NCBI RefSeq assembly: GCF_002382885.1
Contig: NZ_NWVL01000022.1
Location: forward strand, 1 to 64,000
Reading direction: 5' to 3'
DNA length: 64,000 nucleotides
DNA from: Streptomyces sp. WZ.A104
GTDB taxonomy: Bacteria; Actinomycetota; Actinomycetes; Streptomycetales; Streptomycetaceae
Shown in pieces: positions 42,302 through 64,000 of the stretch (position 1 is the first letter of the stretch; every line of letters starts with the position of its first letter). The notes under the pieces are model-generated. The model did not search any database. It was not told the origin of the DNA and was given only the letters and a program-made list of their open reading frames with translations. Both the position numbers and the translations under genes were made by a program.

Positions 42302-42348
42302 GACCGATCATGATGCCGCATCAGCCGTGTGCCACGTGAGACATCCTC

Positions 42349-46271: not shown

Positions 46272-46295
46272 GCCCGTCACTCTATAGTGCTGTGC
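46272..46295. promoter_or_regulatory. Shared bidirectional -10 for two leaderless genes
   Basis: Only 24 bp separate the two start codons. The centre ACTCTATAGTGC gives TATAGT at 46283-46288 rightward, 7 bp before its ATG, and TATAGA at 46286-46281 leftward, 9 bp before its ATG. Either transcript would begin at or next to its ATG. Neither gene has a ribosome site. No good -35 boxes are seen. Confidence 0.55.
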
Positions 46296-46778
46296 ATGGA
46301 GGTACTCGGGATCAGTGTGGGCTTTCCAGCGGCAGGGCGAGGCCCTGTAGTTACCTGCGTTGTTCTCAGGGGGTCGCAGGGCGAGCCCCAGATTCAGGAG
46401 GCTTGTGAGCTTCGAACGGCGGCGTTGGAGGTCATCGACCAGGTTGAAGACCTGGGGCGCATGCTCAGCAGCAAGCTCTCGGCCTTGAACCCCAACGCCG
46501 TAGTGATCTGCGTCGCGGACGTTAGCCCCGCCGGGAACCGCAAGGCGGCACCCCGCCATCGCCTCATGATCGAAGGTGCTCTCGGGTACGTGTGCCGTGA
46601 TCACAAGATCCAGCAGGTTGTGTACCGCAACGGCAAGGAAGTCGGCGAGGCGCTTGGCCTGAGCAAGGCGGAGGCGCTCGCACGTGGTAAGGCGCTGGAC
46701 TCTAGGCGATCGGCGGCCGCTGCTGCGGCCCTCACGGCCTTGCCCGCTGCATCTACTACAGACCCGAATCTGTCGTAG
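46296..46778 (+). CDS. Putative RNase H-fold (RuvC-like) protein
   Basis: Protein of 160 residues. MEVLGISVGFPAAGRGPVVT fits the first beta strand, NPNAVVICVADVSPAG a middle strand and helix, RHRLMIEGALGYVCRDHKIQ a helix often seen in RuvC-like folds, then VVYRNGKEVGEALGLSKAEA. Strand-helix order and the conserved Glu are suggestive of an RNase H-like fold, but the usual Asp in the first strand is not obvious. Its 3' end overlaps the convergent PRTase-like gene by 23 bp. Confidence 0.65.
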   Translation: MEVLGISVGFPAAGRGPVVTCVVLRGSQGEPQIQEACELRTAALEVIDQVEDLGRMLSSKLSALNPNAVVICVADVSPAGNRKAAPRHRLMIEGALGYVCRDHKIQQVVYRNGKEVGEALGLSKAEALARGKALDSRRSAAAAAALTALPAASTTDPNLS

Positions 46779-47202
46779 AAGACGAGCGGGTCGGCGGTCG
46801 TTCTCCGAGGACGTCCAACGCATCTACGCCGCAGTCCTCGGCCTGGGCTGCAACCGCGGTCAGTTGATGGAGGACGACTGCATGGATGCGTCGTGCTCCG
46901 TGGCTGCGGGCGTGGCGGGCAGCCTGTGCCACCGAAGTGCCGCTGGCAAGGTTGACGTCCACGATCAGTACGTTCTGTGAGGCTGTGGCTGTCTGCGAGG
47001 ACAAGCTGACCAAGTCGCTGCACGAAGACAGGAGTGCGCCGACTAGGCGCTCGGCAACGGGGCTGGCGGCAAGGACCGCTTGGGCGCCGCACTGGCGCGC
47101 GACAGTGATCACTTGCTCGGTGGCGTCGCGTAGTGCGCCTGGATCGGTGAGGCGCTCGATGTTGTTGCGAGCCGTGTCCACCGCGTCCAGCAGGTCGCTC
47201 AT
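46756..47202 (-). CDS. Phosphoribosyltransferase-like protein
   Basis: Protein of 148 residues (ATG 47202, GGGGGTGT upstream). The stretch NVLIVDVNLASGTSVAQAAR has the shape of the PRPP-binding loop (usually VLIVDDVLATGGT) but the acidic pair is DV rather than DD/DE and Gly-Thr spacing differs. The rest (ERLVGALLSSCSDLVSLSSQ) is helical. Might be a degenerate PRTase used for ligand sensing, as in some effector modules. It is convergent with, and overlaps, the RNase H-like gene. Confidence 0.6.
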   Translation of the reverse strand: MSDLLDAVDTARNNIERLTDPGALRDATEQVITVARQCGAQAVLAASPVAERLVGALLSSCSDLVSLSSQTATASQNVLIVDVNLASGTSVAQAARHARSHGARRIHAVVLHQLTAVAAQAEDCGVDALDVLGERPPTRSSSTTDSGL

Positions 47203-47436
47203 CGGTACACCCCCATAGGAACGCTGGTCTTCGGTATGTGCAGTCTTGATGGGCAACGGCGGCGTGCCAATACCGACGCTGATTCCGTTACCAACGACAC
47301 TGCCTTCGGCCGCTGTGCGCGGCAAGCCGAACGGCAACCCATCACCCGTCCTGAGGCGTGTCACGTCTCCAGGGAGCGTGCCGCCGATAGCCGATCAAGC
47401 GAGTGAGCGCAGCATCCAGAGGGCGTACAAGGCTAG

Positions 47437-48432: not shown

Positions 48433-50589
48433 ATGAGCAAGAGCGGGCAGGCAATGCCGCTGGAAGTCCGGCATGTTCGCGATGCGTTGAAGCGCGAGTT
48501 CGATCCGCTGATCTCGCTCGCTGACTACGAGAAACGTCAGCCGTTGGAACGTGAGAATGCCTTCAACTCGCGTGCGTTGTCCGCCAGGGCGGCTCGCATG
48601 CTCACGGACTGTACGTCCGAGGAAGCTGCCGAGTCGGTGATCGACGGCCGGGACGACTTCGGTATCGACGCCGTCGCTTTCTCCGCCTCCGCTCCTGAAC
48701 TGTGGCTGATCCAGGCCAAATGGAGCGACAAAGGCAAGGCCGGCTTTGACACGAGTGCCGCACACAAGCTGGTGCACGGCCTGAAGAAGCTCGACAACCG
48801 GGACTTCGATCAGTTCAACGAACGGTTCCGCCGTCTCGCTGACCGTGTGCGGTCAGTGCTTGACGTGCCTACCTGCAAGGTGGTCCTCGTCATCGCTGTC
48901 ATGGGCGAGGGGCACCTGTCTACGGAGACCGAGGCCATACTCGTCGAAGCGGCTGAGGAGTTCGGCGGCTACACGCGCTCCATCGAGCACCGGGTGTTGA
49001 ACCAGACGGACTTCCACCGTGCCGTCCGCGAGGACCTCACCCCAGAGCCGATCACCCTCACCGCCACCATGACGCAGGGCTGGCATTCCCGGGAAACCCC
49101 ATTTCAGGCATATTCGGGGCTGGTGGCGGCCGACGAACTCGCTCAGTGGTACGCCGACAACGGAGAGCGGTTGTACGACCGCAACGTCCGCAGATCGCTG
49201 GGCCTGACCGGAGTCAACCAGACGCTCGTCGAGAGTCTGATACGGGATCCGCAGGGCTTCTGGTACCGCCATAACGGCATCACGGTTCAGTGCGACAAGA
49301 TCGAGCCGCATTTCTTCGCGAAGCAGAAACCCAGTGAGCCCGTGAAGCTGGTCCTCGAAAACGCAAGCGTCGTCAACGGTGCGCAGACCGTCAGTTCTGC
49401 CCACCGGGCGTTCCAGCAGAACGAAGAAGCGGTGGGAGAGGCGTACGTCACCGTCCGGATCATCTCAGTTTCCGGTGCCCCGGAGGGGTTCGCGGGCGAG
49501 ATCACCGAGGCGACCAACACGCAGAACCACATGGAGCGGTCGGACTTCATCGCGATCAAGCCAGTACAGAGCCTGATCCGTGAGGACTTCCGACTCTCTC
49601 TTGACAAGGACTACGTATTCAAGCGCGGTGAGATTGAGCCGTCGCCGGCGTTCGGATGCTCGGTCCGCGAGGCCGCCACCGCCCTTGCCTGCGCTCACCC
49701 AGACCCGGCCCTGGCGGTACGGGTGAAGGGTTCAGCCGACGCGCTCTGGGAGGACGGTCCTGGAGGCATCTACACCCGGCTGTTCGGGCGCAGGCCCAGC
49801 GCTTATCAGATCTGGCGTAGCGTCCTACTTATGCGGCGGGTGCGGGAGTCCTTGCACGAGGTCCGCTCCACGCTCACCGGACGGGCGGGTTCGATCGCTG
49901 ACAGTGGTGCTCTGCTGGTGGCGCACATGGTCGCCCAGCAGGTCGGCTCAGAGGGAATCGACGAACCAGACTCAGGTTGGGAGTCCTCTCTGGAGGACGT
50001 ACCGGCGCGGGTCGGCGCAACGCTTGCCCAGCTTATCCCGCTGGTGAACCACCTTTTTGGGGGCGGAAGTTACATCACCAGCACCTTCGCCAGCGAGGAA
50101 CGCTCCCGAAAACTGGTCGCCGCCGTCCTTCAGGCGCTCTCCGACGGTACGGATGCCGGAGACCTCGCTGCGTACCAGCAGCGGGACGACTCGAAGCCGC
50201 CCAGGCGCCCCAATACCGTGACCCTGCTGATCGACCATGACCGTATTCCATCCGGTACCAGGCTGATGTACCACCCCAGCGCGACGGAGGAGCAGGCCAT
50301 CGGGGACTGGCTGAACGCTGACCCGCGTCGGGCCTACGCGACCTGGGTCAACGACCGGCGCAAGCCGTTGCTCTGGGAGGCTGACGGGAGCCGTTACTCG
50401 CCCAGCGGCCTGGTCACTCATATCTGGCAGCAGGCCGAGTGGCGCGAGGCGTGGAGCGCGGTCCAGGGGCCAAAACAGTGGGGTGTGCTGGGCGAGGATG
50501 GAACGCTTGTTGACCTTGCAGAGCAGCTCTGGCAGCAGCTCCTGACGGAGTCCTTGCCTGAGGAGGAACAGTTCGAGTCGCTCCAGTAA
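48433..50589 (+). CDS. AIPR-family abortive-infection nuclease
   Basis: Protein of 718 residues. The N-terminal nuclease-like part shows D79 in RDDFGIDAVAF and Q94-x-K96 in LWLIQAKW, an Mrr-like variant of the PD-(D/E)xK site. The central AIPR domain (about 230-560) includes YRHNGITVQCDKI, VVNGAQTVSSAHRAF and EATNTQNHMERSDF. The C-terminus (LLWEADGSRYSPSGLVTHIW) resembles DUF4357/RAMA-type modules linked to DNA modification. AIPR proteins act in phage abortive infection. Its position at the head of the methylase/restriction block suggests it may respond to modification state. Confidence 0.88.
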   Translation: MSKSGQAMPLEVRHVRDALKREFDPLISLADYEKRQPLERENAFNSRALSARAARMLTDCTSEEAAESVIDGRDDFGIDAVAFSASAPELWLIQAKWSDKGKAGFDTSAAHKLVHGLKKLDNRDFDQFNERFRRLADRVRSVLDVPTCKVVLVIAVMGEGHLSTETEAILVEAAEEFGGYTRSIEHRVLNQTDFHRAVREDLTPEPITLTATMTQGWHSRETPFQAYSGLVAADELAQWYADNGERLYDRNVRRSLGLTGVNQTLVESLIRDPQGFWYRHNGITVQCDKIEPHFFAKQKPSEPVKLVLENASVVNGAQTVSSAHRAFQQNEEAVGEAYVTVRIISVSGAPEGFAGEITEATNTQNHMERSDFIAIKPVQSLIREDFRLSLDKDYVFKRGEIEPSPAFGCSVREAATALACAHPDPALAVRVKGSADALWEDGPGGIYTRLFGRRPSAYQIWRSVLLMRRVRESLHEVRSTLTGRAGSIADSGALLVAHMVAQQVGSEGIDEPDSGWESSLEDVPARVGATLAQLIPLVNHLFGGGSYITSTFASEERSRKLVAAVLQALSDGTDAGDLAAYQQRDDSKPPRRPNTVTLLIDHDRIPSGTRLMYHPSATEEQAIGDWLNADPRRAYATWVNDRRKPLLWEADGSRYSPSGLVTHIWQQAEWREAWSAVQGPKQWGVLGEDGTLVDLAEQLWQQLLTESLPEEEQFESLQ

Positions 50590-50845
50590 GGGCAGCTTGC
50601 GGCAACGCCCGACACAGTGACGCGATCGGCGAACCAGCTACGCCTCGGCCTCCTCTCGCTTCGGCATCCGGTGGGCGAGGTGCTAGCGAGGAGCGCGCGG
50701 CACCCTGCGCGAGCATCGGTGACTTCGATACGCAAAGTGCACGGCCTCAACGTGAATCGGAAGTCGAAGTCCCGTCCGACGACGCGTGAGCTGATTTGGG
50801 CGGCTGCCCCCCACTGTCCCTGATGCCGAACTTCTCCAGGATGTT

Positions 50846-51685
50846 TCAGGCCCCTTCTGCGAATCGGGGACGAGCCGTGTGCTGCGAGATGCGTGGCATC
50901 GTCTCGCCTGGTGAACGACGGAGCAGCTTCATGTCGCGGCCCTCGACCCAGGCGTTCCAGGACTTGAGGTAGTAGAGCAGGTGCTCCCGCGAGTCGTCGC
51001 GCCTGCGGTGGGTCTTGCCGGCCGCCAGGTTCAGCAGCGTATTGCGTAGAGTCAGCCGCGGGTCACCGATGCGCAGCCCCGCGCCGGTGACCAGGGCCTC
51101 GTGCCAGGGGAGCTGATCGAGCTCGGGACGGGCGTCGGTGGTCGCGTACCAGCCGACCGCGGCGGCCGTCACGGTGATGCGGAAAGCCCTGTTCATCGGG
51201 ATCGCCGCCCGGACAGCGTCCCGCATACCGGGGTGCTGGTCGAGGACGGTGAGCAGCAGATCGTTACTGACGGCGGCGCTCTGCCCGCTCCACGCGGAGT
51301 CCGGGGCGGTCAGATAGAGATGCAGTCCGCGCAGGGCTGCCGCCAGGTGGGTACTGTGCTCCTCGCCCGCGAGGGCCAGCGCGTCGCGCCCGCTGCGCTT
51401 GCGGCCGTTGTCCATCACGGTGAACGCGGACTGCGCCACTCCGCGTGTCACCACGCACTGCACGGGGACGCCCGCCTTCGCCACCGCCTCCAACCGGTGC
51501 TGGCCGTCGATCAGTGTGCCGTGGTCGTCGAAGGCGATGCCCTGGTGGGTGAGCTGCCACTCGCCGCGCTCGATCTGGTGGGTGAGCTGCTGGACGAACG
51601 CTTTGCTCAGCGGGCGGTTCTTGGTGTTGAGAAGCAGCCAGTCGCGGGCCAGCTCGGGCGTGATCACTTCTACGTTGCTCTGCAT
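50846..51685 (-). CDS. ParB/DGQHR-like protein
   Basis: Protein of 279 residues. The core motif GTLIDGQHRLEAVAKAGVPV is that of ParB-like/DGQHR proteins, which includes nucleotide-binding and DNA-processing members, some in phage-related or DNA-modification loci. The front part (PELARDWLLLNTKNRPLSKA) and a long helical C-terminus follow the type seen in actinobacteria. ATG 51685 has GGAGGGG upstream. It diverges from the HTH-methylase gene and shares its promoter region. The 256 bp to its left, after the AIPR gene, hold nothing I recognise. Confidence 0.8.
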   Translation of the reverse strand: MQSNVEVITPELARDWLLLNTKNRPLSKAFVQQLTHQIERGEWQLTHQGIAFDDHGTLIDGQHRLEAVAKAGVPVQCVVTRGVAQSAFTVMDNGRKRSGRDALALAGEEHSTHLAAALRGLHLYLTAPDSAWSGQSAAVSNDLLLTVLDQHPGMRDAVRAAIPMNRAFRITVTAAAVGWYATTDARPELDQLPWHEALVTGAGLRIGDPRLTLRNTLLNLAAGKTHRRRDDSREHLLYYLKSWNAWVEGRDMKLLRRSPGETMPRISQHTARPRFAEGA

Positions 51686-51732
51686 GACGTCCCCTCCATT
51701 GCCATCACCGGCAGCACTCGTCGATAGCAACG

Positions 51733-51784
51733 ATGACAGCATCGCTTGAAAGCATTGTCAAACGACATTCTGCCATGCTGTACT
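51733..51784. promoter_or_regulatory. Overlapping divergent promoters, ParB-like gene and methylase operon
   Basis: Rightward: TTGTCA (51755), 18-base spacer, TGTACT (51779). Leftward: TTGACA (complement of 51756-51761), 17-base spacer, TGTCAT (complement of 51733-51738). The two -35 boxes overlap almost completely, so polymerase binding for the two directions should compete. Spacing is good for both; no operator identified. Confidence 0.6.
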
Positions 51785-51821
51785 GTTCGTGCGTGTTCGA
51801 TGAAGACGAAGGGGGCTACTG

Positions 51822-53906
51822 ATGGCCGCACCGACCACGGTAAGTACCTCCGACATCGCCCGTATCGCGGACGTCGGCCGCGCGACCGTGACCAATTGGC
51901 GGCGCCGCCACTCCGATTTCCCTGCTCCCACGGGCGGTACGGAATCGCGCCCCACGTTCACGCTGGAGGATGTGGAGGGGTGGCTGGCCGAGCATGGCCG
52001 CCTACCGCAGTTCACCGAGCAGCAGCGGTTGTGGCGTGAGCTGCTGCGAGAGGCCGAGGGGTCGGGGCTGACTGAAGCGATGGCCCGGGCCGCGCTCTTC
52101 CTCGCCTTCCTGGAACATGAAGGTCACACCTCACGGGAGACGCGTTACGTTCACTACGCCGAAGGGCCGGGCGTGGACGCCGAGGGTCTCAGTGTCGGCA
52201 TGCTCGACGAGATCGGCAGAGCACTTCAGGACATGCCTGAGCCGGTCGCCCTACTACGTTCCGCGTCGCTGACGCGTGAGCTTGCGGCTGCCGCGACACG
52301 GCAGACGCCGGACGAAGTCCTGTCGGACCTGCTCGACCGCTACGCGAAGGAGTCGCGATGGCGCAGGCCGGGGACCCCGGCGGCGGTGGCTCACTTCATG
52401 GCGACACTGGCCAAGGCCGCCTCGCCGGACGACGCGCTGAGCGCCGTACTCGACCCGGCATGCGGGACGGGGGACCTGCTGGAGGCGGCCCGGATCCAGG
52501 GGGCCACGCAGCTTGACGGCCAGGACCGGGAGCTGCATTTGGCCCAGCTGGCCGCGTCCCGGCTCTCCCTCCGGCTGGGCGGGAAGGGGCACTGCTCTGT
52601 CGACGCCGAGGACGCTCTCGCCCGATCCCGGCATACGGGTGGGGAGTTCGACGCGGTCCTGTGCAATCCCCCGTACAACGAACGTGACTGGGGCGCGGAC
52701 GAGTTGGCCTACGACTCCCGCTGGGAGTACGGCCTGCCGTCCCGGTCCGAGTCCGAGCTAGCCTGGCTGCAGCACTGCCTGTCGCGGGTGCGCCCGGGTG
52801 GTGTGGTGGTCATGCTGCTGCCGCCGTCCGTCGCCTCCCGGAGTTCGGGGCGGCGGATCCGGGCGGCGCTCGTACGGCACGGCGCGCTGCGCGCTGTGCT
52901 GGCGCTGCCTGCCGGGGCCGCTCCGCCGGCGCACATCGGGCTGCATCTGTGGGTGCTGCGGAGGCCGGGCGGGGGCAACGGTGCAGAGGCCAGCCATGTG
53001 TTGTTCATGAACTGCAAGTCGTTGCCGGACATGAACAGCCGTGGCGGGCGCCCCTCCGTCACCTACCGAGAGCTGCTTACAGCGCCTGAGAAGTGCCCTG
53101 CCATGCCAGGCGTCTACCGTGCCGTTCCGATCACGGATCTGCTCGACGACACAGTCGACCTCACGCCCGCGCCACGACTCGCGGGGGAGCGCGACCTGCC
53201 GCCGGTAGCCGACCTCCGTCGTACCCTGAGCGGCCGTCGAGACAGCCTCGGCTCCGTACTGTCGCAGGCATCGGCACTCGCCCCGAGCGATGATTGGGGA
53301 GTCTCCCGGACGGGCGGGCCATGGACGATGGCCCCGCTCGCCGATCTGATTCGTACGGGGGCGCTGACTCTGCTCAGGGCCAAGGCGAAGGGCGGCAGCG
53401 GGGATTCGGATGGCGACGATCCCGTCCTCACGGCTGCGGATGTGAACGAGGGGCGCTCCCCGTCCGGGCGCGGTCCGGCAGGGGATGAGGACGCGGTGCG
53501 GATCAAGGTCGGGGACGTGATCATCCCCGGGACCCTGCTGTCCGCGGACAGGACCGCCGCGCGGGTTGCGGACGACACCGACGCGGGGGCGCTGCTCGGC
53601 AGGAACCTGCACCTGCTGCGCCCGGACGAGGCGCGGCTCGACCCGTGGTTCCTGGCCGGCTTCCTCGCCGACCCGGCCAATGTGCAGCGGGCGAGCCAGG
53701 GGACGTCGATCGTTCGGGTGGATCCGCGCAGGCTCCAAGTTCCCTTGCTGCCGCTTGAGGAGCAGCAGACATACGGGGCGGCGTTCCGGCGGCTGCACAC
53801 CTTTACAACGGCTCTGCGCCGGGCTGCGCTCCAGGGTGAGGAGACGGCCGGGAAGTTGCGGGCCGCGCTCACAGCAGGCGCTTTGCGGCCACCGCCACCG
53901 GCCTGA
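51822..53906 (+). CDS. HTH - N6-adenine methylase - specificity-domain fusion
   Basis: Protein of 694 residues. A small N-terminal HTH (VSTSDIARIADVGRATVTNW) is followed by an HsdM-like methylase with SAM motif DPACGTGDLL near 211 and catalytic NPPYNERDW near 282. The C-terminal 200 residues resemble an HsdS half, ending LPLEEQQTYGAAFRRLHTFT then a coiled coil. It may therefore bind, recognise and methylate DNA by itself. It is 91 bp upstream of hsdM and the first gene of the rightward run. It could be an accessory modification enzyme or a modification-dependent regulator of the operon. Confidence 0.88.
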   Translation: MAAPTTVSTSDIARIADVGRATVTNWRRRHSDFPAPTGGTESRPTFTLEDVEGWLAEHGRLPQFTEQQRLWRELLREAEGSGLTEAMARAALFLAFLEHEGHTSRETRYVHYAEGPGVDAEGLSVGMLDEIGRALQDMPEPVALLRSASLTRELAAAATRQTPDEVLSDLLDRYAKESRWRRPGTPAAVAHFMATLAKAASPDDALSAVLDPACGTGDLLEAARIQGATQLDGQDRELHLAQLAASRLSLRLGGKGHCSVDAEDALARSRHTGGEFDAVLCNPPYNERDWGADELAYDSRWEYGLPSRSESELAWLQHCLSRVRPGGVVVMLLPPSVASRSSGRRIRAALVRHGALRAVLALPAGAAPPAHIGLHLWVLRRPGGGNGAEASHVLFMNCKSLPDMNSRGGRPSVTYRELLTAPEKCPAMPGVYRAVPITDLLDDTVDLTPAPRLAGERDLPPVADLRRTLSGRRDSLGSVLSQASALAPSDDWGVSRTGGPWTMAPLADLIRTGALTLLRAKAKGGSGDSDGDDPVLTAADVNEGRSPSGRGPAGDEDAVRIKVGDVIIPGTLLSADRTAARVADDTDAGALLGRNLHLLRPDEARLDPWFLAGFLADPANVQRASQGTSIVRVDPRRLQVPLLPLEEQQTYGAAFRRLHTFTTALRRAALQGEETAGKLRAALTAGALRPPPPA

Positions 53907-53997
53907 ACCCATGCGGGCCGTCCCGCACACACGACACACTGACCGCGTACATACCGCACTGAAGTATTCGCCGCCCCGGCGGCCCGGAAGGACAACG

Positions 53998-56031
53998 GTG
54001 GAGCAGGACCACAGCAGGCACTCGGAGATGATCAACTTCATCTGGAAGGTCGCCGACTTGTTGCGCGGCGACTTCCGGGCGCATGACTACGGGAAGATCA
54101 TTCTTCCGTTCACGGTGCTGCGGCGACTGGATTGTGTGCTGGAGCCGACGAAGGCCGAAGTGCTTGCGGAGGTCGAGGAACTGGAGGAGCGGGGACGCAA
54201 GCAGGCATACCGGGAGATGAGGCTCTGCGAAGTTGCGGGGCACGGTTTCTACAACACGAGTAATCTCACCTTCGAGCGCATCGGCCGGGACCACTCGCAG
54301 GCAAAGACACTGCTGAAGTCGTATTACGGCGCCTTCTCTGAGAACGCTCGGGAGATCCTTGACCGGTACAACTTCGACCAGCACATCTCCGATCTTCAGG
54401 AGAGGGGGCTGCTATATCAGGTCGTCGGTGAATTCGCCAAGATCGATCTGAGGCTGCCGAAGCGGCCGGACGACAAGGACGGCATCGACAACCACCAGAT
54501 GGGCTACATCTTCGAGGAGCTCATCCGGAAGTTCTCCGAGGACAACCCCGCTGGTGAGCACTTCACGCCCCGCGAGGTGGTCCGGTTGATGGTGAACCTG
54601 CTGCTAGCCCCGGATGAGGGGGCGCTGGGTGCGGGCAAGACGCGGACGGTCCTCGACCCGGCCTGCGGGACGGGCGGCATTCTCAGCGAGACTGAGGACC
54701 ACATCAAGCGAAAGGCTCCGCATACGACCGTCGGGCTGTACGGGCAGGAACTGAACCCCGAGTCGCACGCCATCTGCCAGTCCGACCTGCTGATCAAAGG
54801 GCAGGAACCGGACAACATCAAGTCCGGGAACTCCTTCACTCAGGACGGCCACAAGGACCAGAAGTTCGACTACTTGGTCGCGAACCCGCCGTTCGGAGTG
54901 GAGTGGAAGAAGGTCAAGCAGGAAGTGGAACGCTTCGCCAGAAACGGAGATCGTTTTCACGCGGGACTGCCAAGGATCAGCGACGGTTCCTTCCTCTTCC
55001 TCCAGCACATGATTTCGAAGATGAAGCCGGCGCATCCTGACGGGAAGGGCGGCTTCGAAGGCGGAAGCCGTATCGCGATCGTCTTCAACGGGTCGCCGCT
55101 GTTCAGCGGCGGGGCGGGCTCCGGCGAGTCCGACATCCGTCGGTGGATCCTGGAGGAAGAGGACCTGCTGGAGGCTATCGTGGCGCTGCCGGATCAGCTC
55201 TTTTACAACACCGGGATTTCCACCTACTTCTGGATCCTGTCGAACAGGAAGCACCGGAGCCTCAAGGACAAGGTCATCTTGCTGGACGCGCGAGGCCAGT
55301 CGACGAGGATGCGTAAATCGCTGGGCGACAAGCGCAAGGTAATCTCCGATGCCCAGATTACAGCGGTGACGGGCATGTACATGAAGGCGGTGGCTGCGGC
55401 GACCGACGAGCGGCTGTCCCTGCCGGAGAACGTAAAGATCTTTGAGACGAAGAGGTTCGGTTACCAACGCATCATCGTGGAAAGGCCGTTGAAGCTGCAC
55501 TTTGAGATCACGCAGGAGACGCTGGCTGCGCTCCGGGCTTCCGCTGCGATCGAAAAGGCGATTGATGCGGGTTCGTTCGCAGATGCGCTGAAGTCGCTGG
55601 TGGGCGAGCGTTGGGCGACGAAGGCGGAGGCGTGGGACGCGATTCGTCAGGCGATGGTGCCGACGGGCCTGATGATGCCGACGGGCAAGCCCTTCCAGAA
55701 GGCGCTACGGGATGTGGTGGGGGTGCGCGACCCCGAGGGCGAGGAGCAGTACCTCAAGAAGGGCGACCCGCACCCGGAGCCGGACCCTGACCTCCGTGAC
55801 AACGAGAACGTGCCGTTGGAGGAGGACATCGACGCGTACATGAAGCGCGAGGTGTTGCCGCATGTACCGGACGCGTGGGTGGACCACGAAAAGACGAAGA
55901 TCGGCTACGAGATTCCGTTCACGCGGCAGTTCTATGTGTATGAGCCGCCGAGGCCGTTGAAAGAGATTGACGCGGAGCTGGCGTCGCTGGAGGCCGAGAT
56001 TCAGCGGCTGCTCGGGGAGGTGACGAAGTGA
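53998..56031 (+). CDS. hsdM: Type I restriction enzyme, modification subunit
   Basis: N6-adenine methyltransferase of 677 residues. The N-terminal HsdM helical domain (FIWKVADLLRGDFRAHDYGK) precedes motif I DPACGTGGIL near 218 and NPPFGVEW near 296. GTG 53998 with GAAGGA 6 nt upstream was chosen; the frame is open upstream but inside the preceding gene. The C-terminus (ELASLEAEIQRLLGEVTK) is a coiled coil for contact with HsdS. Longer than the roughly 520-residue classic subunit because of a C-terminal extension from about 500. Stop overlaps the hsdS GTG by 4 bp. Confidence 0.96.
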   Translation: MEQDHSRHSEMINFIWKVADLLRGDFRAHDYGKIILPFTVLRRLDCVLEPTKAEVLAEVEELEERGRKQAYREMRLCEVAGHGFYNTSNLTFERIGRDHSQAKTLLKSYYGAFSENAREILDRYNFDQHISDLQERGLLYQVVGEFAKIDLRLPKRPDDKDGIDNHQMGYIFEELIRKFSEDNPAGEHFTPREVVRLMVNLLLAPDEGALGAGKTRTVLDPACGTGGILSETEDHIKRKAPHTTVGLYGQELNPESHAICQSDLLIKGQEPDNIKSGNSFTQDGHKDQKFDYLVANPPFGVEWKKVKQEVERFARNGDRFHAGLPRISDGSFLFLQHMISKMKPAHPDGKGGFEGGSRIAIVFNGSPLFSGGAGSGESDIRRWILEEEDLLEAIVALPDQLFYNTGISTYFWILSNRKHRSLKDKVILLDARGQSTRMRKSLGDKRKVISDAQITAVTGMYMKAVAAATDERLSLPENVKIFETKRFGYQRIIVERPLKLHFEITQETLAALRASAAIEKAIDAGSFADALKSLVGERWATKAEAWDAIRQAMVPTGLMMPTGKPFQKALRDVVGVRDPEGEEQYLKKGDPHPEPDPDLRDNENVPLEEDIDAYMKREVLPHVPDAWVDHEKTKIGYEIPFTRQFYVYEPPRPLKEIDAELASLEAEIQRLLGEVTK

Positions 56032-57314
56032 CCGAGGTGCTTGGAACTACGCTGCCGGAGGGCTGGACCGCTTCCCGTCTGAAGCGCGTCACGTCCCTGC
56101 TGAACCGGGGATCTGCTCCGGACTACGTTGACGATGGCCCCGTGCGTGCTATTAGTCAGGCGGCTAATCAACCTGGGGGATTGGACTGGGCGCGGACTCG
56201 GTTTCACAATGCGATTGGGGAACCCCGCAAGCTTAAGGGCTACTTGGTGTCCGAAGATATCCTCATCAACTCCACTGGGACCGGAACCCTGGGGCGAATT
56301 GGCTTCTTCCAGGGTGCCCCAGAAGGGATTCCCTGCATGGCGGACACGCATGTGACCGTGGCGCGAGTGATCCCCTCCGAAGTGGGGCCCAGATTTCTCT
56401 ATTACTGGCTGTCATCGATTCCCTTTCAGGAATACATCTATGCGGCGTTGGTAGTAGGGGCGACGAACCAGATCGAGTTGAATCGCGATCGACTCGGCGA
56501 TGCGCCAGTACCCCTTCCGCCTGCTGAGGAACAGCGTAGGATCTCCGGCTTCCTTGATGCAGAGGTCGCTCTTATTGATGACGTTGTGAGCGCCAGGCTC
56601 ACGCAGCTCGCCATCCTCGATAGGCGTCTCTCAGCGATCCGTGATGCCCTCGTTGAAGAGTACGCCGAGCGTTTTTCGCTAGTTCCCCTGCGTCGCTTCA
56701 CTGCAAGGATTGAGCAAGGTGCGAGTCCTCAGTGTGACAACAGTCCAGCCGGAGCTGACGAGTGGGCGGTGTTGAAGCTCAGCAGCGTGAAACGGGGAGT
56801 GTTCGCCGCTGAGGAAAATAAACGGCTTCCAGAATTGGGCAACATTGCCCATCAGAATGAAGTGAAGCCGGGAGACTTTCTTGTGACCCGAGCCAATACA
56901 CCAGATCTCGTGGGGGATGTAGCCGTAGTGCGAGAAACGCCTGCGCGGCGGCTACTGCCTGACCTTATCTATCGCGTATTGCTTGATCCGACCCTCGATG
57001 CTGACTATGTCGCAGAAGTCGCACTCAGTGGCCGAATTCGGGCGTTGGTTAAGGCTGATGCGCGTGGGTCCTCGCAGTCAATGGTCAAGCTTCGTGGCGA
57101 GGATATCAAGAATTGGCCTATTCCGGTGGCGTGTATGACTGCCCAGAAGCAACTCGTTGCCACTATGAGTGATGCGGCTCGGTCCACTGAGCAGCTCAAG
57201 TCGACTATTCGGCGTCAAATCGACCTGCTGATTGATCGCCGCCGCGCCCTGATTACCGCCGCAGTGACCGGCCAAATTGATGTAACAACCGCACGGGGGG
57301 TGCGAGTTCCGTGA
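56028..57314 (+). CDS. hsdS: Type I restriction enzyme, specificity subunit
   Basis: Protein of 428 residues with the two-fold HsdS plan: TRD1 (about 5-165), conserved helix with PLPPAEEQRRISGFLDAEVA, TRD2 (about 225-370) and the second conserved helix (AQKQLVATMSDAARSTEQLK ... DLLIDRRRALITAAVTGQ). This chooses the bipartite target sequence. Base composition is visibly less GC-rich than hsdM and hsdR, as expected for exchangeable specificity genes. GTG start and stop overlap both neighbours by 4 bp. Confidence 0.95.
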   Translation: MTEVLGTTLPEGWTASRLKRVTSLLNRGSAPDYVDDGPVRAISQAANQPGGLDWARTRFHNAIGEPRKLKGYLVSEDILINSTGTGTLGRIGFFQGAPEGIPCMADTHVTVARVIPSEVGPRFLYYWLSSIPFQEYIYAALVVGATNQIELNRDRLGDAPVPLPPAEEQRRISGFLDAEVALIDDVVSARLTQLAILDRRLSAIRDALVEEYAERFSLVPLRRFTARIEQGASPQCDNSPAGADEWAVLKLSSVKRGVFAAEENKRLPELGNIAHQNEVKPGDFLVTRANTPDLVGDVAVVRETPARRLLPDLIYRVLLDPTLDADYVAEVALSGRIRALVKADARGSSQSMVKLRGEDIKNWPIPVACMTAQKQLVATMSDAARSTEQLKSTIRRQIDLLIDRRRALITAAVTGQIDVTTARGVRVP

Positions 57315-60300
57315 TTCACAGCAACCCGTTCAGCAACAAAGGCTCGAAGGAACCCCAGCACAAGGTTCACCACGAAGAGGCGTTCCGCGTCGCGATCATC
57401 GAGCGGCTCCTCGCCCACGGCTGGGAGGGGGGCCTCGCCCTCCGCTGGAGGATGGGCCTCAGCTCCGACTACCGCCGTGACCTCGCCCTCGACACCGCGC
57501 AGGTCTTCGCCTTCATCGGGGCCACCCAGAACAAGGCTTGGCTGAGCTACGCCGGCTACTACGACGACGACCCCGACATCGCCCAGCGTGCGTTTGCCGA
57601 GCACCTCGCCCGGTGGATCGACAAACGGGGCACCCTCCAGACCCTCCGCCAAGGGGTCAAGGCGCACGGCATCCACTTCGACCTCGCCTACTTCAAGCCG
57701 TCACAGACGATCGACCCCGGCGCCCTCACCTTGTACAGCAAGAACCGGCTCACCGTAGTCCGTGATCTCGTCTACGCCACCCGCCGTGTGCCGGACGGCG
57801 CGACCAGCAACGACGAGGGCAACAAGCCCGACCTCACTCTCTTCGTCAACGGCATCCCCGTTGCCACCGCAGAGTTGAAGAACCCGCTCACCGGCACCGG
57901 TACAGCCGAGGCCATGCACCAGTACCGGACCACCCGGGACCACCGGGAACCGCTCTTCGCCAAGCGCGCCCTCGCGCACTTCGCGGTCGACCCGGACGCT
58001 GTCTTCCTCACCACCCAGTTGAAGGGTAGGGACACCGTCTTTCTGCCTTTCAACACCGGTTCCGACGGCCCCGGAAACCGTGGCGGTGCCGGAAATCCGG
58101 CGATCCCCGACGCGGCTCCCGCCGGCACGTACCGGACCTCGTACCTCTGGGAACAGATCTGGCACCCGGACACCTGGCTGGATCTTCTGGAGCGGTACGT
58201 TCACCAGAGCACGGAGAAGAAGGATGACGGCAGCACCGTCAAGAAGCTGATCTTTCCGCGCTTCCACCAGTGGCACGCCGTGAGGGAGTTGACCGCGCAC
58301 GCCGCGCGGCACGGGGCGGGGCACAACTACCTGGTCATGCACTCCGCGGGGTCCGGCAAGTCGAACACCATCGCCTGGCTCGCCCACCGGCTCTCCGACC
58401 TGCACGATGCACGACACGAGTCGGTTTTCGACAAGGTACTGGTGATCACGGACCGTACCGTCCTGGACGATCAGCTGCAGGAAACCATAGGTGACTTCCA
58501 GCAGACCAATGGCCTGGTCCTCGGCATTGGCGGCAAGGGCGGCTCGAAGTCGTCGCAGCTGGCGGATGCGCTCGCGCAGGAAACGGCGAAGATCCTCATC
58601 GTCACCCTCCAGACCTTCCCCGCGCTGCTCGCCTACCTGCGCAAGTCGCCCGTCGAGATACGCGGCAATCGCTTTGCGATCGTCGTCGACGAAGCGCACT
58701 CATCCCAGTCGGGCGAAGCCGCCACCGACGTCAAGAAGGCCCTGCGCGATCTCGGCCTCGACGCCGACGACGAAGAGACCGGAGCCACGGAGGCCGAGGC
58801 GGAAGTGTCGGAGCCCACCACCGACGAGCGTCTCGCCGCGTCCGCCCGTGCCCGTGGCCAGAGCGCGAACCTCTCCTACTTCGCCTTCACCGCCACCCCC
58901 AAGCACAAGACGCTGAAGCTCTTCGGCACCAAGAACCCGCTCACCGGCCTTTATGAGCCCTTCCACACCTATTCGATGCGGCAGGCGATCGAAGAGAGGT
59001 TCATCCTTGACCCGCTGTGCCAGTACGTGAGGTACGAGACGTACTGGCAGATGGTCAACGAGGACCCGCACGAGGCGGACCGCGAGGTCGACAAGAAGAA
59101 GGCCAACGCACTGCTCGCCTTGACCGCGCACGGTCACACCGAGACCGCCGTGCAGCGGGCCAGGGTGATCGCGGAGCACTTCATGGCCCACACCCGCAGG
59201 CGGCTGGGAGGGCGGGCCAAGGCCATGGTGGTGTGCCGTTCGCGGTACGGCGCGCTCCAGCTGTACCGGCAGATCGTCAAGTACTTCGACGACAACGGCT
59301 ATCCGGACCCCGGGGTGCTGGTCGCCTTCTCCGGCTCTCTCAAGGAGGGAGAGGAGGAGGTCACCGAGGCGAAGCTCAACGGCTTCTCGGAGGGCGAGCT
59401 ACGCAAGAGGTTCGCGTACACCGCGGCCGATGACAAGAAGGGCACGTCAGCCAGGAGCCGGCGCGAGTACCGGATCCTGGTGGTCGCGGACAAGTACCAG
59501 ACGGGCTTCGACCAGCCGCTGCTGACCACGATGTACGTCGACAAGAAGCTGAAGGGTGTCGCCGCTGTGCAGACGCTCTCCCGCCTTAACCGCACGCATC
59601 CTCTCAAGGACCAGCAGGATCTTTGCGTCCTGGACTTCGCGAATGACGCGCACGACATCCAGAGCGAGTTCCGGCCGTTCTTCGAAGAAGCCCAGACCAT
59701 GCCCACCGACCCCAATCTGATCTATGACGCGCAGCATCAAGTCATGGATCCGCCGATCCTGCTCGTCGACGAGATGCAGTCGTTCGTTGCGGCGTACCTC
59801 AGGGCACAGGACGCGGCGGCCGGGGACGGCACCCGCTGGGAGAAGCTGCACGCGGAGCTCTACCGGCACACCGACCCCGCCCGCGACAGGTTCATCGTGC
59901 TCAGGGAAAGCGAAGTGCCGGCCGAGCACGAAAGCGCCGAGCAGTTCCGGGCCGACCTCGCCGACTATGTGCGCAAGTACAGCTTCCTTGCGCAGATCGT
60001 GCCGTACATCGACATCGATCTAGAGCGCCTGCACCTCTTCGGGCAGCATCTGCTGCGCAGGCTGCCCCCGCGCGAGGGAGGTGGGGTGGATATCGGAGAA
60101 ACCCGGCTTGAGGCCGTGCGCCTGGAGAAGGTTGGGGAGGTCAACGTGAGCCTGACTGCCGAGGGCGCGGTCGAACTGAAGGGCTTCGGCAGTGGTGCCG
60201 GTGGGGCGGCTGAACCCGACAAATCGCCGCTGGCCAAGGTGATCGACCAATTCAACGAGCGGTTCGGTACGGACTTCACCGAGGACGACTTCATCGTGCC

Positions 60301-60547
60301 GCTGCGGGCGGTGATGGCCGACGAGAAGGTGCGGCGGTCCGCCTCGCAGGACGACGAGGACGGATTCAAGCACGTCATCGACCCGGTGCTGGACGCCGAG
60401 ATGATGAAGCATATCGACTCCGTTCGTGAGTTGGGGGACCACTACTTCCACGACGACCGCGATCACCGGGAGTCGATCAAGCGTGACCTGCGGCGGCACG
60501 CCTTCCGCATGCTGCGCCGCGAACTGGGGATGGACGACGCGGCCTGA
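57311..60547 (+). CDS. hsdR: Type I restriction enzyme, endonuclease/translocase subunit
   Basis: Protein of 1078 residues. The N-terminal nuclease site has PDLTLFVNGIPVATAELKNP (D ... E-x-K). SF2 helicase motifs follow: Walker A HSAGSGKSNT near 344, DEAH box VVDEAHSSQSGE near 460, and ADKYQTGFDQP as motif V/VI region. The C-terminal helical domain binds HsdM/S. GTG start coupled to hsdS. The subunit is complete and should cut unmodified DNA after translocation. Confidence 0.96.
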   Translation: MIHSNPFSNKGSKEPQHKVHHEEAFRVAIIERLLAHGWEGGLALRWRMGLSSDYRRDLALDTAQVFAFIGATQNKAWLSYAGYYDDDPDIAQRAFAEHLARWIDKRGTLQTLRQGVKAHGIHFDLAYFKPSQTIDPGALTLYSKNRLTVVRDLVYATRRVPDGATSNDEGNKPDLTLFVNGIPVATAELKNPLTGTGTAEAMHQYRTTRDHREPLFAKRALAHFAVDPDAVFLTTQLKGRDTVFLPFNTGSDGPGNRGGAGNPAIPDAAPAGTYRTSYLWEQIWHPDTWLDLLERYVHQSTEKKDDGSTVKKLIFPRFHQWHAVRELTAHAARHGAGHNYLVMHSAGSGKSNTIAWLAHRLSDLHDARHESVFDKVLVITDRTVLDDQLQETIGDFQQTNGLVLGIGGKGGSKSSQLADALAQETAKILIVTLQTFPALLAYLRKSPVEIRGNRFAIVVDEAHSSQSGEAATDVKKALRDLGLDADDEETGATEAEAEVSEPTTDERLAASARARGQSANLSYFAFTATPKHKTLKLFGTKNPLTGLYEPFHTYSMRQAIEERFILDPLCQYVRYETYWQMVNEDPHEADREVDKKKANALLALTAHGHTETAVQRARVIAEHFMAHTRRRLGGRAKAMVVCRSRYGALQLYRQIVKYFDDNGYPDPGVLVAFSGSLKEGEEEVTEAKLNGFSEGELRKRFAYTAADDKKGTSARSRREYRILVVADKYQTGFDQPLLTTMYVDKKLKGVAAVQTLSRLNRTHPLKDQQDLCVLDFANDAHDIQSEFRPFFEEAQTMPTDPNLIYDAQHQVMDPPILLVDEMQSFVAAYLRAQDAAAGDGTRWEKLHAELYRHTDPARDRFIVLRESEVPAEHESAEQFRADLADYVRKYSFLAQIVPYIDIDLERLHLFGQHLLRRLPPREGGGVDIGETRLEAVRLEKVGEVNVSLTAEGAVELKGFGSGAGGAAEPDKSPLAKVIDQFNERFGTDFTEDDFIVPLRAVMADEKVRRSASQDDEDGFKHVIDPVLDAEMMKHIDSVRELGDHYFHDDRDHRESIKRDLRRHAFRMLRRELGMDDAA

Positions 60548-60566
60548 ACCCGCCGCGGGCAGCGCG

Positions 60567-60603
60567 AACCGTCCACGGCAACTCCCCGTAACCGTGGACG
60601 GTT
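60567..60603 (+). terminator. Perfect 12-bp hairpin between hsdR and kinase gene
   Basis: AACCGTCCACGG, 13-nt loop, CCGTGGACGGTT, 20 bp after the hsdR stop. Probably terminates or attenuates hsdMSR transcription, leaving the kinase with reduced read-through or its own start. Confidence 0.8.
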
Positions 60604-60663
60604 TACGGCGACACGCGCCACACTGGGCACACATGATCACGGGGCACGGGGAGGGCAGCGCAG

Positions 60664-62271
60664 GTGGCGCCAGAAGTACGAGTCATCGCCGAACGCTATG
60701 AGCTGCGGACCAGGATCAGCACCGGGGGTATGGGACAGGTCTGGCTTGGCTACGACCCGATTCTGAACCGGGACGTAGCGGTCAAACTCATCCGCCGGGA
60801 CCTGACCACGCCGGGCCCGGACGCGGAAGAGCTGGCCGAGCGCTTCAAGCGGGAAGCCCGGGTTACAGCCAAGTTCGACCACCCAGGGGTGCCCGCCGTC
60901 CATGACGCGGTGCTCGACCGGGCGGCGGACGGCGTCTACATGGTGATGCAGCTGGTGCGTGGCGCCCTGCTCACAGACATCCTCGCCAGGCCCGGTGTGC
61001 TGCCGGTCCCCTGGGCGGTTTCCGTCGCCGCGCAGGTCTGCTCGGTGCTCTCGTACGCTCACGCCGTGCCCGTCGTTCACCGCGACTTGAAGCCGGACAA
61101 CATCATGGTCGCCGGGGATGGCACCGTGAAGGTTCTCGACTTCGGAGTCGCCGCGGTACTCGGAACCGATGTCACCAAGCTGACGTCCACCGGGCACATC
61201 ATCGGCACCCGCCGCTACATGTCGCCCGAGCAGATCCAAGCGGCCGCGGTCAGTCCGCGCAGCGATCTCTATGCGCTGGGCTGCATCCTTCATGAACTGC
61301 TCGCCGGGAAACCGCCGTTCACGGCCGAGGCAGAGTTCCAGCTGATGGAGGACCATATGTACCGGGCGCCGGCGCCGCTATGCGGGCTGCGCTCTGAGGT
61401 GGACACGGCACTGGAGCGGCTGGTTCTGGATCTGCTGGCCAAGGTGCCCCATCAGCGGCCTGACTCAGCCCAGGATGTCTACGACCGTCTGGTGCCCTTT
61501 CTCCCCGCACCCGACCCTGAGCGGACCACCGAGCAGCGGGGGCAGGAAGCCACTGACCCCACGGGGCCTTACCGTCGCCCGCTCGCGCCCCGTCCCCGCC
61601 CGAGCGAGAAGGCTGTGTACACGCCGACCGCTGTGGACTCGCCACTGCGGTCGGCCGCCCCTGCTGTACCGGATGAGGAACTGCAGCAGGCCCGCGGGCA
61701 CGCAGCGGCGCTCGTCGAGGAGGAGCGGTTCTCCCAGGCATCCGGAATGCTGGAGGACGTCCTGGCCCGCGCTGCTGCGGTGCGTAGCGCTTCCGAACCG
61801 CTGATGGTCGGCCTCCGTCTTGTCCACGCGCTCGCGCTCTTTTGTGACGATGACTACGGACGAGCACTGCCGGAGTACGAGGCACTCGTTGAAGTATTGG
61901 AAGCCGCAGGTCCTAACCGTGGCGAGGATGCCCTTTACTGCCGCAGGCAGGCCGCCTTCTGCCGGATGGAGCTCGGCGACAGCGAAGGTGCGCTGGCCGA
62001 GTTCGAGGCCGTACTGGGACAGATGAGGCAGGGGCTGCCGGACAGCGACATGGATGTCCTTGAGGTACGCAGGCATGTCGGCCTGCTGCTTCAGGCGGTC
62101 GACCGGCTCCGGGAGGCGGTTGAGGTGTTGATGCCGCTGTACCGGGACCTAATGGCCGAGTACGGACCGGACGCCCCGGAGACCGCCCAGGTGCGGGACG
62201 CACTCGTGCGTATCCGGCTGCGGACCTCGCGTACAACCGGCTCCGGCAGGGCCGTCACACGCAGAAATTGA
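60664..62271 (+). CDS. Soluble Ser/Thr kinase with TPR-like C-terminal domain
   Basis: Protein of 535 residues. Kinase domain (about 8-275): Gly loop STGGMGQVW, VAVKLI Lys, VVHRDLKPDNI, LDFGVAAVLG and MSPEQI, a complete active kinase. A Pro-rich linker (about 280-335) leads to TPR-like helices (LVEEERFSQASGMLEDVLAR ... GRALPEYEALVEVLEAAG). There is no transmembrane segment, unlike most Streptomyces PASTA-type kinases. GTG start. It lies 116 bp behind hsdR and 17 bp before the helicase gene, so kinase and helicase are clearly paired. I infer control of restriction or helicase activity by phosphorylation. Confidence 0.9.
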   Translation: MAPEVRVIAERYELRTRISTGGMGQVWLGYDPILNRDVAVKLIRRDLTTPGPDAEELAERFKREARVTAKFDHPGVPAVHDAVLDRAADGVYMVMQLVRGALLTDILARPGVLPVPWAVSVAAQVCSVLSYAHAVPVVHRDLKPDNIMVAGDGTVKVLDFGVAAVLGTDVTKLTSTGHIIGTRRYMSPEQIQAAAVSPRSDLYALGCILHELLAGKPPFTAEAEFQLMEDHMYRAPAPLCGLRSEVDTALERLVLDLLAKVPHQRPDSAQDVYDRLVPFLPAPDPERTTEQRGQEATDPTGPYRRPLAPRPRPSEKAVYTPTAVDSPLRSAAPAVPDEELQQARGHAAALVEEERFSQASGMLEDVLARAAAVRSASEPLMVGLRLVHALALFCDDDYGRALPEYEALVEVLEAAGPNRGEDALYCRRQAAFCRMELGDSEGALAEFEAVLGQMRQGLPDSDMDVLEVRRHVGLLLQAVDRLREAVEVLMPLYRDLMAEYGPDAPETAQVRDALVRIRLRTSRTTGSGRAVTRRN

Positions 62272-62288
62272 CCGAAGGAGCATCTCGC

Positions 62289-64000
62289 ATGGCACAGCTG
62301 GCTCTCTCGGTCCGGTTCCTTGATGAATTCGGGAAGCTCGACTCCAAGGCGCGGTCCGGGGTCGTGAAGACGGCTCTGAAGTTCCAGCAGCTCACGCTCA
62401 AACAGCTCTGGTCGGACGCCGGACTCGATTTCAAGCAGCCCAAGGGGGCCAGGGACAAGCATATTTACACCTGCCGTATCGACAGGTTCTACCGGGGAGT
62501 CGTACTCGCGCCGGGCACCGGCGAGGACTTTCTGCTGCTGCGTGTGATGGCGCACGACGACGCCTACGCCTGGGCTTCCAAGCAGGTGCCGAGCGTAAAC
62601 GCGGTGACCCATGGACTGGAGATCCGTGACGTCGTCACAGTGGAGCAGCTGGTGCCGGCATGGGAGACGGAGGCGGCCACCGCCGCGGCGGAACCTCTCT
62701 TCGCTCGTCACCCGGACGGAGATCTTCGTGGTCTGGGTATCGAGGATGATGTGCTGCGCGCGGCCCGTTCTCTGACCTCCAAGAAGCAGCTCGATGCATT
62801 CGCTCCGTTGATGCCGGAGGATCAGTGGCAGGTGCTGCAGTTCCTCGCCGAGGGACTGAGCGTGCAGACGGTATGGGGTGAGCTGGTCGCCTTCCGTGCC
62901 CGGAACGGCGCGCTTACGGTGGACCGTACAGACCTGTCCAGCGCGATGCGGAACACCCCATCGCGTATCGCCCTGGTGACTGGCCCGGGAGAACTGTCCG
63001 ACATCCTCGGCAAGCCGTTCGCCGCGTGGAGGATCTTCCTGCATCCGTCTCAGCGGTATATGGCGTACCGGCCCAGCTACTCGGGTCCTGCCCAAGTGAC
63101 CGGTGGACCGGGCACGGGGAAAACTGTGGTGGCACTTCATCGGGTCAAGCACCTCCTGGAGCATCTACGGACCGGCGAGCGCATCCTGCTCACCACGTAC
63201 ACCGGGGCGCTCACATCGGCTCTTCGCGAGGGGCTGGCCCTGCTGATTGAGGACGAGGAGCTGCGTGGTCGGGTGGACGTGTCGACGGTCAACGCCCTGG
63301 CACGAGAAATTGTTGAACCACATGACACCGTCCGGCGTTCTTACCTCGACGGGGCTCAGGAGACTGCTCTCTGGGGAGAGATCGGCGACCAGCTGGGTCT
63401 GCCGTGGAACGGCCAGTTCCTGGCCCAAGAGTACAAGCATGTCATCTTGGCGCAGGGTCTGCGCTCGCTCGACGCCTACCGTGAGGCGTCCAGAAGCGGT
63501 CGGGGCTCCCGGCTCGCCTCCGCTCTACGGCACGAGGTCTGGCAGGCGGTGGAGGCGTTCCAGGTTGCGCTCGACAAGCGCTCCGCGCGTACGCATCTGG
63601 GTGTGTGCGATGAAGCGGCGTTGCGGGTCACCGCATCCGGAGTGCCGCCCTACCGGCATGTGGTCGTTGACGAGGCACAGGACCTGCACCCCGCCCAGTG
63701 GAGGCTACTGCGGGCCGTGGCGCCCCATCGCCCTGACGACTTGTTCATTGCTGGCGACCCGCATCAGCGCATCTACGACTCGAAGGTGTCTCTGCGATCG
63801 TTGGGGGTCGCCGTGACCGGACGCTCCACCCGGCTGCACAAGAACTACCGCAGCACGCAGGAAATTCTCGCTTGGGCGGTGACGTTGCTGGACGGTCGGC
63901 CTGTGGAGCAATTGGAGAACGGGAGTGCGGACACGCTGGCAGGTTTCCGGTCCTCGCTCCGCGGCGCCCGCCCGACCGTGCGTGCCACGGCTGACCCGGA
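62289..64000 (+). CDS. RelE-like domain fused to UvrD-type SF1 helicase (truncated by window end)
   Basis: At least 570 residues, still open at the window end. The N-terminal 100 residues (AQLALSVRFLDEFGKLDSKA ... IYTCRIDRFYRGVVLAPGTG, then EDFLLLRVMAHDDAYAWASK) have the RelE/ParE-like strand pattern of mRNA-interferase folds. A helical region follows, then SF1 helicase motifs: Walker A GGPGTGKTVVA near 272, Walker B VVVDEAQDL near 460, GDPHQRIY (motif III) and LHKNYRST (motif IV). ATG 62289 follows GAAGGAG. Whether the RelE-like part is toxic or only structural is unknown; similar fusions occur in bacteria, function undescribed to my knowledge. Confidence 0.88.
   Translation, partial: MAQLALSVRFLDEFGKLDSKARSGVVKTALKFQQLTLKQLWSDAGLDFKQPKGARDKHIYTCRIDRFYRGVVLAPGTGEDFLLLRVMAHDDAYAWASKQVPSVNAVTHGLEIRDVVTVEQLVPAWETEAATAAAEPLFARHPDGDLRGLGIEDDVLRAARSLTSKKQLDAFAPLMPEDQWQVLQFLAEGLSVQTVWGELVAFRARNGALTVDRTDLSSAMRNTPSRIALVTGPGELSDILGKPFAAWRIFLHPSQRYMAYRPSYSGPAQVTGGPGTGKTVVALHRVKHLLEHLRTGERILLTTYTGALTSALREGLALLIEDEELRGRVDVSTVNALAREIVEPHDTVRRSYLDGAQETALWGEIGDQLGLPWNGQFLAQEYKHVILAQGLRSLDAYREASRSGRGSRLASALRHEVWQAVEAFQVALDKRSARTHLGVCDEAALRVTASGVPPYRHVVVDEAQDLHPAQWRLLRAVAPHRPDDLFIAGDPHQRIYDSKVSLRSLGVAVTGRSTRLHKNYRSTQEILAWAVTLLDGRPVEQLENGSADTLAGFRSSLRGARPTVRATADP

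Follow-up and report, generated by a model that had tools for sequence, protein, structure and literature searches.

Type I restriction-modification (RM) has long been studied as a self-contained three-gene enzyme. The methylation-associated defence system (MADS), an eight-gene set, was reportedly described by Maestri et al. in 2024, and its gene content is taken here from PADLOC models. The locus considered here occupies the right end of a 64,000-nucleotide stretch of Streptomyces sp. WZ.A104 (the window, which covers contig positions 1-64000; the contig is 105.8 kb long and the genome 8.1 Mb) and joins a complete set of type I genes, encoding HsdM, HsdS and HsdR, to an upstream gene for a methylase-specificity fusion (MS) with its own helix-turn-helix (HTH) domain and to a downstream gene for a PknB-like Ser/Thr kinase. 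With a probability that we put at roughly 0.55, the sequence evidence points to a mobile, kinase-linked type I RM system having a methylase-derived autoregulator and a dedicated kinase.

Two described regulators resemble MS in part. M.SsoII is a type II cytosine-5 methylase with an N-terminal HTH that represses its own promoter, acting at a single (quasi-)palindrome in the intergenic control region that is distinct from the restriction sites (PMC3978073). MS likewise has an N-terminal HTH fused to a methylase and a conserved, nearly genome-unique putative site upstream, but differs in being an N6-type I M-S fusion that is often catalytically degenerate, linked to a kinase and placed beside type I genes. 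RptR represses a type I RM defence island via promoter repeats (PMC12255303). The resemblance lies in a dedicated regulator of a type I operon acting on promoter sites, putative in the present case, and in other defence modules embedded in the locus; RptR differs in that it is encoded as a separate, small protein whose site is TAGCTA, and no kinase accompanies it.

The enzyme itself resembles type I RM of the EcoR124I/EcoKI type in the domains of HsdM, HsdS and HsdR, catalytic motifs, overlapping genes and exchange of HsdS, from which it is set apart by obligate-looking MS and TPR kinase neighbours found only in one actinomycete HsdR clade. PacII (M1M2S) combines two different M subunits with one S, whereas MS carries its own half-S and an HTH, and PacII has no kinase. 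The locus is similar to MADS in its HTH (Mad1-like, 1e-4), methylase (Mad2-like, 1e-21) and Ser/Thr kinase (kinase domain of Mad6, 8e-67); however, the similarity to Mad6 is confined to the kinase domain, higher scores come from generic MTase_I and PD-T4-6 models, and a full HsdMSR is present. The Mad1-Mad8 set was represented by partial Mad1, Mad2 and Mad6 and a weak Mad8, with no Mad3, Mad4, Mad5 or Mad7 among the matches listed. BREX type 2/Pgl is also a Streptomyces defence locus with a methylase bearing a specificity part and a kinase. No PglZ or BrxC/PglY was found among the Pfam or listed PADLOC matches of eight proteins, nor in the downstream open reading frames, and the kinase is a single PknB-like TPR kinase with no NERD domain rather than the NERD plus tandem kinases of PglW. 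The first-pass annotation had cited Pgl/BREX as a precedent for phospho-control while seeing no PglZ or BrxC; the latter observation is confirmed and the former holds as a functional analogy only. For Gabija, raised by the UvrD gene, no GajA was present among the listed matches of window proteins and the GajB matches were partial. Membership in MADS, Pgl/BREX or Gabija thus fails because key components are missing. No account of a type I RM locus joined to a dedicated kinase came up in the literature searched, from which subscription papers were mostly absent. The MS family itself is already present in PADLOC as 'type I methyltransferase' (PDLC03037); for its kinase link and upstream element the same literature gave no description.

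In order to determine whether the genes form a unit, relatives were chosen by HsdR alone and their neighbours then inspected. The first-pass annotation had named as its own refutation hsdMSR homologues that usually lack the kinase/helicase pair and the fusion methylase. Three samples were used: 150 congeneric genomes, a phylum-wide sample, and a separate collection from which the best 80 HsdR loci were taken. The thresholds set for tblastn and the use of 10-kb flanks affect the presence counts; MS was counted where at least 7 kb of upstream flank was available and the kinase where at least 4 kb was available downstream. Among the best 80 HsdR loci, which span more than 20 actinobacterial genera (including Streptomyces, Micromonospora, Nocardia, Actinomadura, Streptosporangium, Saccharothrix, Lentzea, Glycomyces and Frankia) at HsdR identities of 44-99%, MS was present in 72 of the 75 loci with enough flank and the kinase in 69 of 75. 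The 80 include near-copies, so that the percentages refer to loci and not to independent events; the argument is carried by the spread over more than 20 genera and by the boundary on the HsdR tree. In the 150 congeneric genomes, the kinase accompanied all but one of 29 loci with HsdR above ~44% identity, two further loci of the 29 being divided across contig ends, and MS was present in 27 of the 29. All eight loci with distant HsdR (~35-36%) had neither gene. The phylum-wide sample gave the same division, with HsdR relatives at 37-43% lacking MS and kinase and closer relatives having the kinase. In a tree built with FastTree, the HsdR of all 107 members formed one clade with support of 100, apart from 25 control loci without kinase or MS, and kinase presence required six changes, namely the clade boundary and five scattered absences. 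The kinase starts 13-208 bp past HsdR in 45 of 72 loci. The distances of MS, kinase and HsdR correlate with one another (rho 0.79-0.88) and that of HsdS with none (rho about 0). In the kinase-less exception, G006, a 42-codon kinase remnant (L066:7738-7863) lies beside an intact MS-hsdMSR, a natural kinase loss.

The backbone MS–HsdM–HsdS–HsdR–kinase therefore recurs in dozens of species, an arrangement that is more than chance, and the conclusion that these five genes form one unit is well supported. For these five genes, the conserved co-occurrence that the first-pass annotation proposed to look for in actinobacterial genomes was found. A single composite system, as proposed in the first-pass annotation, holds for MS and the kinase; the UvrD helicase, present in only 20 of 70 related loci, is not a core part, and AIPR is not a regular one (18 of 70, in variable position). 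Both occupy slots that vary between loci and are plug-in accessories. The full backbone together with the upstream element was also found, via HsdR, on a plasmid of S. mirabilis; a Rhodococcus plasmid with HsdR at 41% identity does not have the backbone. A plasmid search with the window MS gave no match at 1e-60, a negative that is not trusted because the S. mirabilis plasmid has the whole backbone.

The deduced sequences of HsdM, HsdS and HsdR predict an ordinary type I enzyme by every testable feature. HsdM has intact DPACGTG (motif I) and NPPF (motif IV), and HsdS gives near full-length PADLOC Specificity_I matches in addition to Methylase_S. HsdR combines a PD-ExK nuclease with an SF2 translocase (D174...E188-x-K190, Walker A, DEAH), its catalytic motifs being intact and these residues invariant across the alignment. 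At the DNA level S. fulvorobeus shares 95-99% identity with a 16.5-kb block of the window contig (48103-64621, AIPR included) that is interrupted only at hsdS (56031-57234); for strain SID9727 the figure is 84-86%. HsdS is 29% identical to that of S. fulvorobeus while the flanking genes are 90-99% identical. Over 43 pairs of loci whose HsdR proteins share 90% identity or more, the median identity was 27% for HsdS and 85% for the target-recognition domain of MS; the low HsdS value goes with an HsdR identity of 95%. HsdS is thus exchanged between close relatives while MS and the kinase stay, which argues against MS as a partner methylase needing a specificity match with HsdS. The hsdR of S. fulvorobeus (L033:13738-16970), 99% identical to the window copy, lies in two frames near codon 919, the result of a frameshift or sequencing error.

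MS has an excisionase-like HTH (residues about 9-57), followed by a helical domain and the N6-methylase core; a single target-recognition domain, flanked by two long helices, constitutes a half-S. In Foldseek, an AlphaFold2 model (pLDDT 88.9) matched type I enzymes of the M and M-S kinds, PacII M1M2S and an intact methyltransferase from Vibrio, and S subunits in the PDB match residues 567-687. The window protein has DPACGTG at motif I and NPPY at motif IV, and NPPY/F is kept in most MS of its lineage. Motif IV is HPPY in the 82% identical relative, HPPF in 10 of 10 B-type MS examined (those of the hsdMSR-free operon described below), and nearly always degenerate in the hsd-linked MS of the C lineage (EPPL, DPPL, EPPF, EPPT and others; EPP[LFW]). 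Loss of motif IV with retention of the gene means that whatever holds MS and the kinase together does not require the catalytic Asn. The 'second methylase' of the first-pass annotation is accordingly correct as to architecture, with an HTH and a specificity part, and doubtful as to role, motif IV being lost in many relatives and the specificity part not being swapped while HsdS is. MS is most likely mainly a sequence-specific DNA-binding protein.

Upstream of MS, motif counting revealed a conserved element, which in the window lineage reads TGAAAGCAnTGTCAA and lies about 100-150 bp ahead of the HTH-encoding part. Within that lineage, 49 of 56 non-redundant loci score at least 12/14, compared to a maximum of 11 in 395 shuffles. 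The window element (51747-51761) is the only site in the 8.1-Mb genome at no more than one mismatch and is preceded, 14 bp upstream, by the weaker half site GACAGCATC; AAGC half sites, 13-14 or 27 bp apart, often precede the element. In the B-type operon the element is TGTGAACCGAGTCAACACGGTTCACG, many copies of which have palindromic arms. The 15-bp core was counted 73 times across 150 genomes, and 68 of 73 sites of GTGAACCGAGTCAAC are directly upstream of a same-strand MS gene of the free-standing operon. None was found in 33 genomes that keep the kinase without MS near it. About one site was expected by chance. Some C loci have GTTAGCACTGTCAAC followed by GCTAAC. The GTCAA core is common to all versions and the arms are lineage-specific. 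The simplest reading, with fair support, is that the element is a putative MS binding site for autoregulation.

A compact operon encoding MS, a small membrane protein and a TPR kinase, without hsdMSR, was found in 68 of 150 congeneric genomes. It belongs to the core chromosome, and its MS is catalytically degenerate. The source genome also has such an operon (contig 148, L090), and further examples are L039, L042, L043, L045 and L048-L052. The kinase of the window locus has intact catalytic motifs (K41, HRD at 139-141, and DFG). Its nearest PADLOC models are PD-T4-6 defence kinases (kinase domain 1e-90). PD-T4-6 is a stand-alone anti-phage kinase, whereas the present gene sits in a conserved operon. 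No match to the kinase was found in 50,697 phage records. The TPR part named in the first-pass annotation is supported via relatives (TPR_12 in 37 of 43 family kinases), the window kinase alone falling below the Pfam cut-off. The closest relatives of the kinase are encoded in the HsdR-free core operon and are kept in most Streptomyces, for which a signalling role fits better than that of a toxin.

All genes named in the first-pass annotation were present with intact frames (Table 1), and the tight same-direction operon from 51822 was confirmed in the order MS–HsdM–HsdS–HsdR–kinase–UvrD. Gaps of 91 bp separate MS from HsdM and of 116 bp HsdR from the kinase, and the HsdM/HsdS, HsdS/HsdR and kinase/UvrD junctions are 4-bp overlaps. 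The best start of HsdM is the GTG at 53998, the mechanical start at 53566 falling inside MS. The UvrD gene continues past the window to contig position 64433, encoding 721 residues.

Table 1. Features of the locus in the window.
Feature	Position	Strand	Evidence or context
AIPR/AbiU-like protein	48433..50589	+	Pfam AIPR E 8e-31; PADLOC AbiU 1e-24
ParB-like protein	50846..51742	-	LIDGQHRLEA motif; divergent to MS, promoter region common to both
Operator-like element TGAAAGCATTGTCAA	51747..51761	+	Between divergent ParB-like gene and MS
MS, HTH-N6 methylase-half-S fusion	51822..53906	+	Pfam N6_Mtase 1.7e-26; PADLOC PDLC03037 3e-131
HsdM, modification subunit	53998..56031	+	Pfam HsdM_N 4e-26, N6_Mtase 1e-55; PDLC03029 5.5e-248
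HsdS, specificity subunit	56028..57314	+	Pfam Methylase_S 5e-12
HsdR, restriction/translocase subunit	57311..60547	+	HSDR_N, SWI2_SNF2, T1R_D3-like (Pfam)
PknB-like Ser/Thr kinase, C-terminal TPR-like half	60664..62271	+	Pkinase 1e-44; PknB in PDB 1e-53
UvrD-type helicase, N-terminal RelE-fold domain	62268..64000	+	UvrD-helicase, UvrD_C (Pfam)

The AIPR gene, which had been placed just upstream of the operon, is present and does not directly adjoin it, the minus-strand ParB-like gene intervening. The latter had no Pfam match and is kept in the G082, G116 and G096 loci and in 2 of 80 of the wider locus set; being limited to the closest loci, it was rejected as a core part. The N-terminal RelE domain assigned to the UvrD helicase gave no sequence match in Pfam or PDB, and the assignment is upheld by structure prediction only: with an AlphaFold2 model of the N-terminus (pLDDT 90), nearly all top Foldseek matches were RelE/YafQ/YoeB/HigB toxins. 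Other modules occupy other slots. Between hsdS and hsdR, the loci L046, L047, L070, L121, L129, L155 and L161 encode an OLD-like ATPase that is usually accompanied by a DUF4276 protein (PADLOC HEC-01), and an XRE-DUF5753, DUF397-like and HATPase-like cassette lies between hsdR and the kinase in about 30 of L113-L192, many of them Streptomyces loci. A tyrosine integrase (contig 64643-65935; L002:4643-5935) to the right of the cassette is absent in S. fulvorobeus, which runs directly from 64621 to 65916; with no direct repeat at its end, it was rejected as a unit boundary. No tRNA attachment site was found in the window or the adjoining L002 stretch. The left part of the island contains a GmrSD-like type IV restriction gene (42308-44224), a DDE transposase (41484-42143), a weak phosphoribosyltransferase-like gene (46756-47364) and a second kinase (45207-46823), none of it common to related cassettes. 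The second kinase, only ~26-34% identical to the kinase homologues and outside the shared 48103-64621 block, was rejected as a part of the system.

The locus is expected, from its parts, to serve in phage defence, and there is fair support in the sequence for control of the operon by MS. In the proposed mechanism, MS would bind the operator-like element at its own promoter and thereby set the amount of restriction enzyme and kinase, and in the window lineage it may additionally methylate DNA. The co-transcribed PknB-like TPR kinase would be the dedicated signalling partner. More speculatively, infection or DNA stress might cause it to phosphorylate MS or an Hsd subunit such that restriction is released or activated, with UvrD-RelE, AIPR, HEC-01 and similar modules as optional extra effectors. 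Several observations weigh against this proposal. In about 5 loci the kinase is missing or degraded, and 2-3 lack MS, so that neither is strictly essential, and in the core-chromosome version the two genes can occur apart. Co-divergence of MS, kinase and HsdR is partly plain linkage. The element is clear in only about 4 of 13 C-lineage loci, another factor could bind it, and that kinase-only genomes lack it says little about binding, since deletion of MS would take the element along. Finally, window-lineage MS mostly has NPPY/F, and methylation may still matter there.

A somewhat unlikely alternative treats the kinase, alongside UvrD-RelE or AIPR, as an effector of abortive infection over which the restriction enzyme stands guard, as EcoprrI does over PrrC; a phage inhibitor that blocks restriction would then cause the kinase to phosphorylate host targets and stop growth, with MS only repressing the operon. 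The PD-T4-6 models nearest to the kinase are in accord with this, as are the effector-like RelE-fold, AIPR and HEC-01 modules filling slots near it and its adjacency to and co-divergence with HsdR, whereas the HsdR-free core operon of most Streptomyces is more like signalling and the TPR half suggests a dedicated protein partner. It is less probable still that MS is a true second methylase, either protecting a second sequence or pairing with HsdM on HsdS as in PacII, the regulatory element being secondary. The window protein and MS in most loci of its lineage retain motif I and NPPY/F, and PacII M1M2S chains rank with the best matches by structure and by sequence, but the gene is kept where motif IV is lost (the 82% relative, all examined B-type and nearly all C-type MS), and its own half-S is unchanged when HsdS is swapped. 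That an ordinary type I system lies by chance beside unrelated kinase, helicase and nuclease genes is highly improbable. The surroundings are indeed a defence island (GmrSD, another kinase, AIPR, integrase) and the accessory genes do vary, yet for MS and the kinase the idea is contradicted by constant order and orientation in dozens of species picked regardless of the kinase, a sharp phylogenetic boundary and short gaps; it would hold only for a set of near-copies, whereas the loci span 44-99% HsdR identity and more than 20 genera.

Beyond the autoregulated, kinase-linked RM system, a broader and more tentative possibility is that MS founds a family of DNA sensors that derive from methylases and are for the most part catalytically dead, each occupying one palindromic operator per genome and signalling its state (methylation, S-adenosylmethionine level or invading DNA) to a Ser/Thr kinase dedicated to it; the core MS–membrane protein–kinase module of normal Streptomyces chromosomes would, on at least one occasion, have become attached to a type I restriction enzyme, which would have placed restriction under phospho-control. 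A whole actinomycete type I clade carries an extra methylase-like putative DNA-binding protein and a eukaryotic-like kinase, which suggests that these soil actinobacteria switch restriction on and off via a dedicated signalling circuit. If true, the locus would be a directly testable case of DNA restriction under phosphorylation control, would explain how specificity changes by HsdS swap while regulation is constant, and would show a type I M-S fusion to act as a transcription factor, with a bearing on making streptomycetes transformable.

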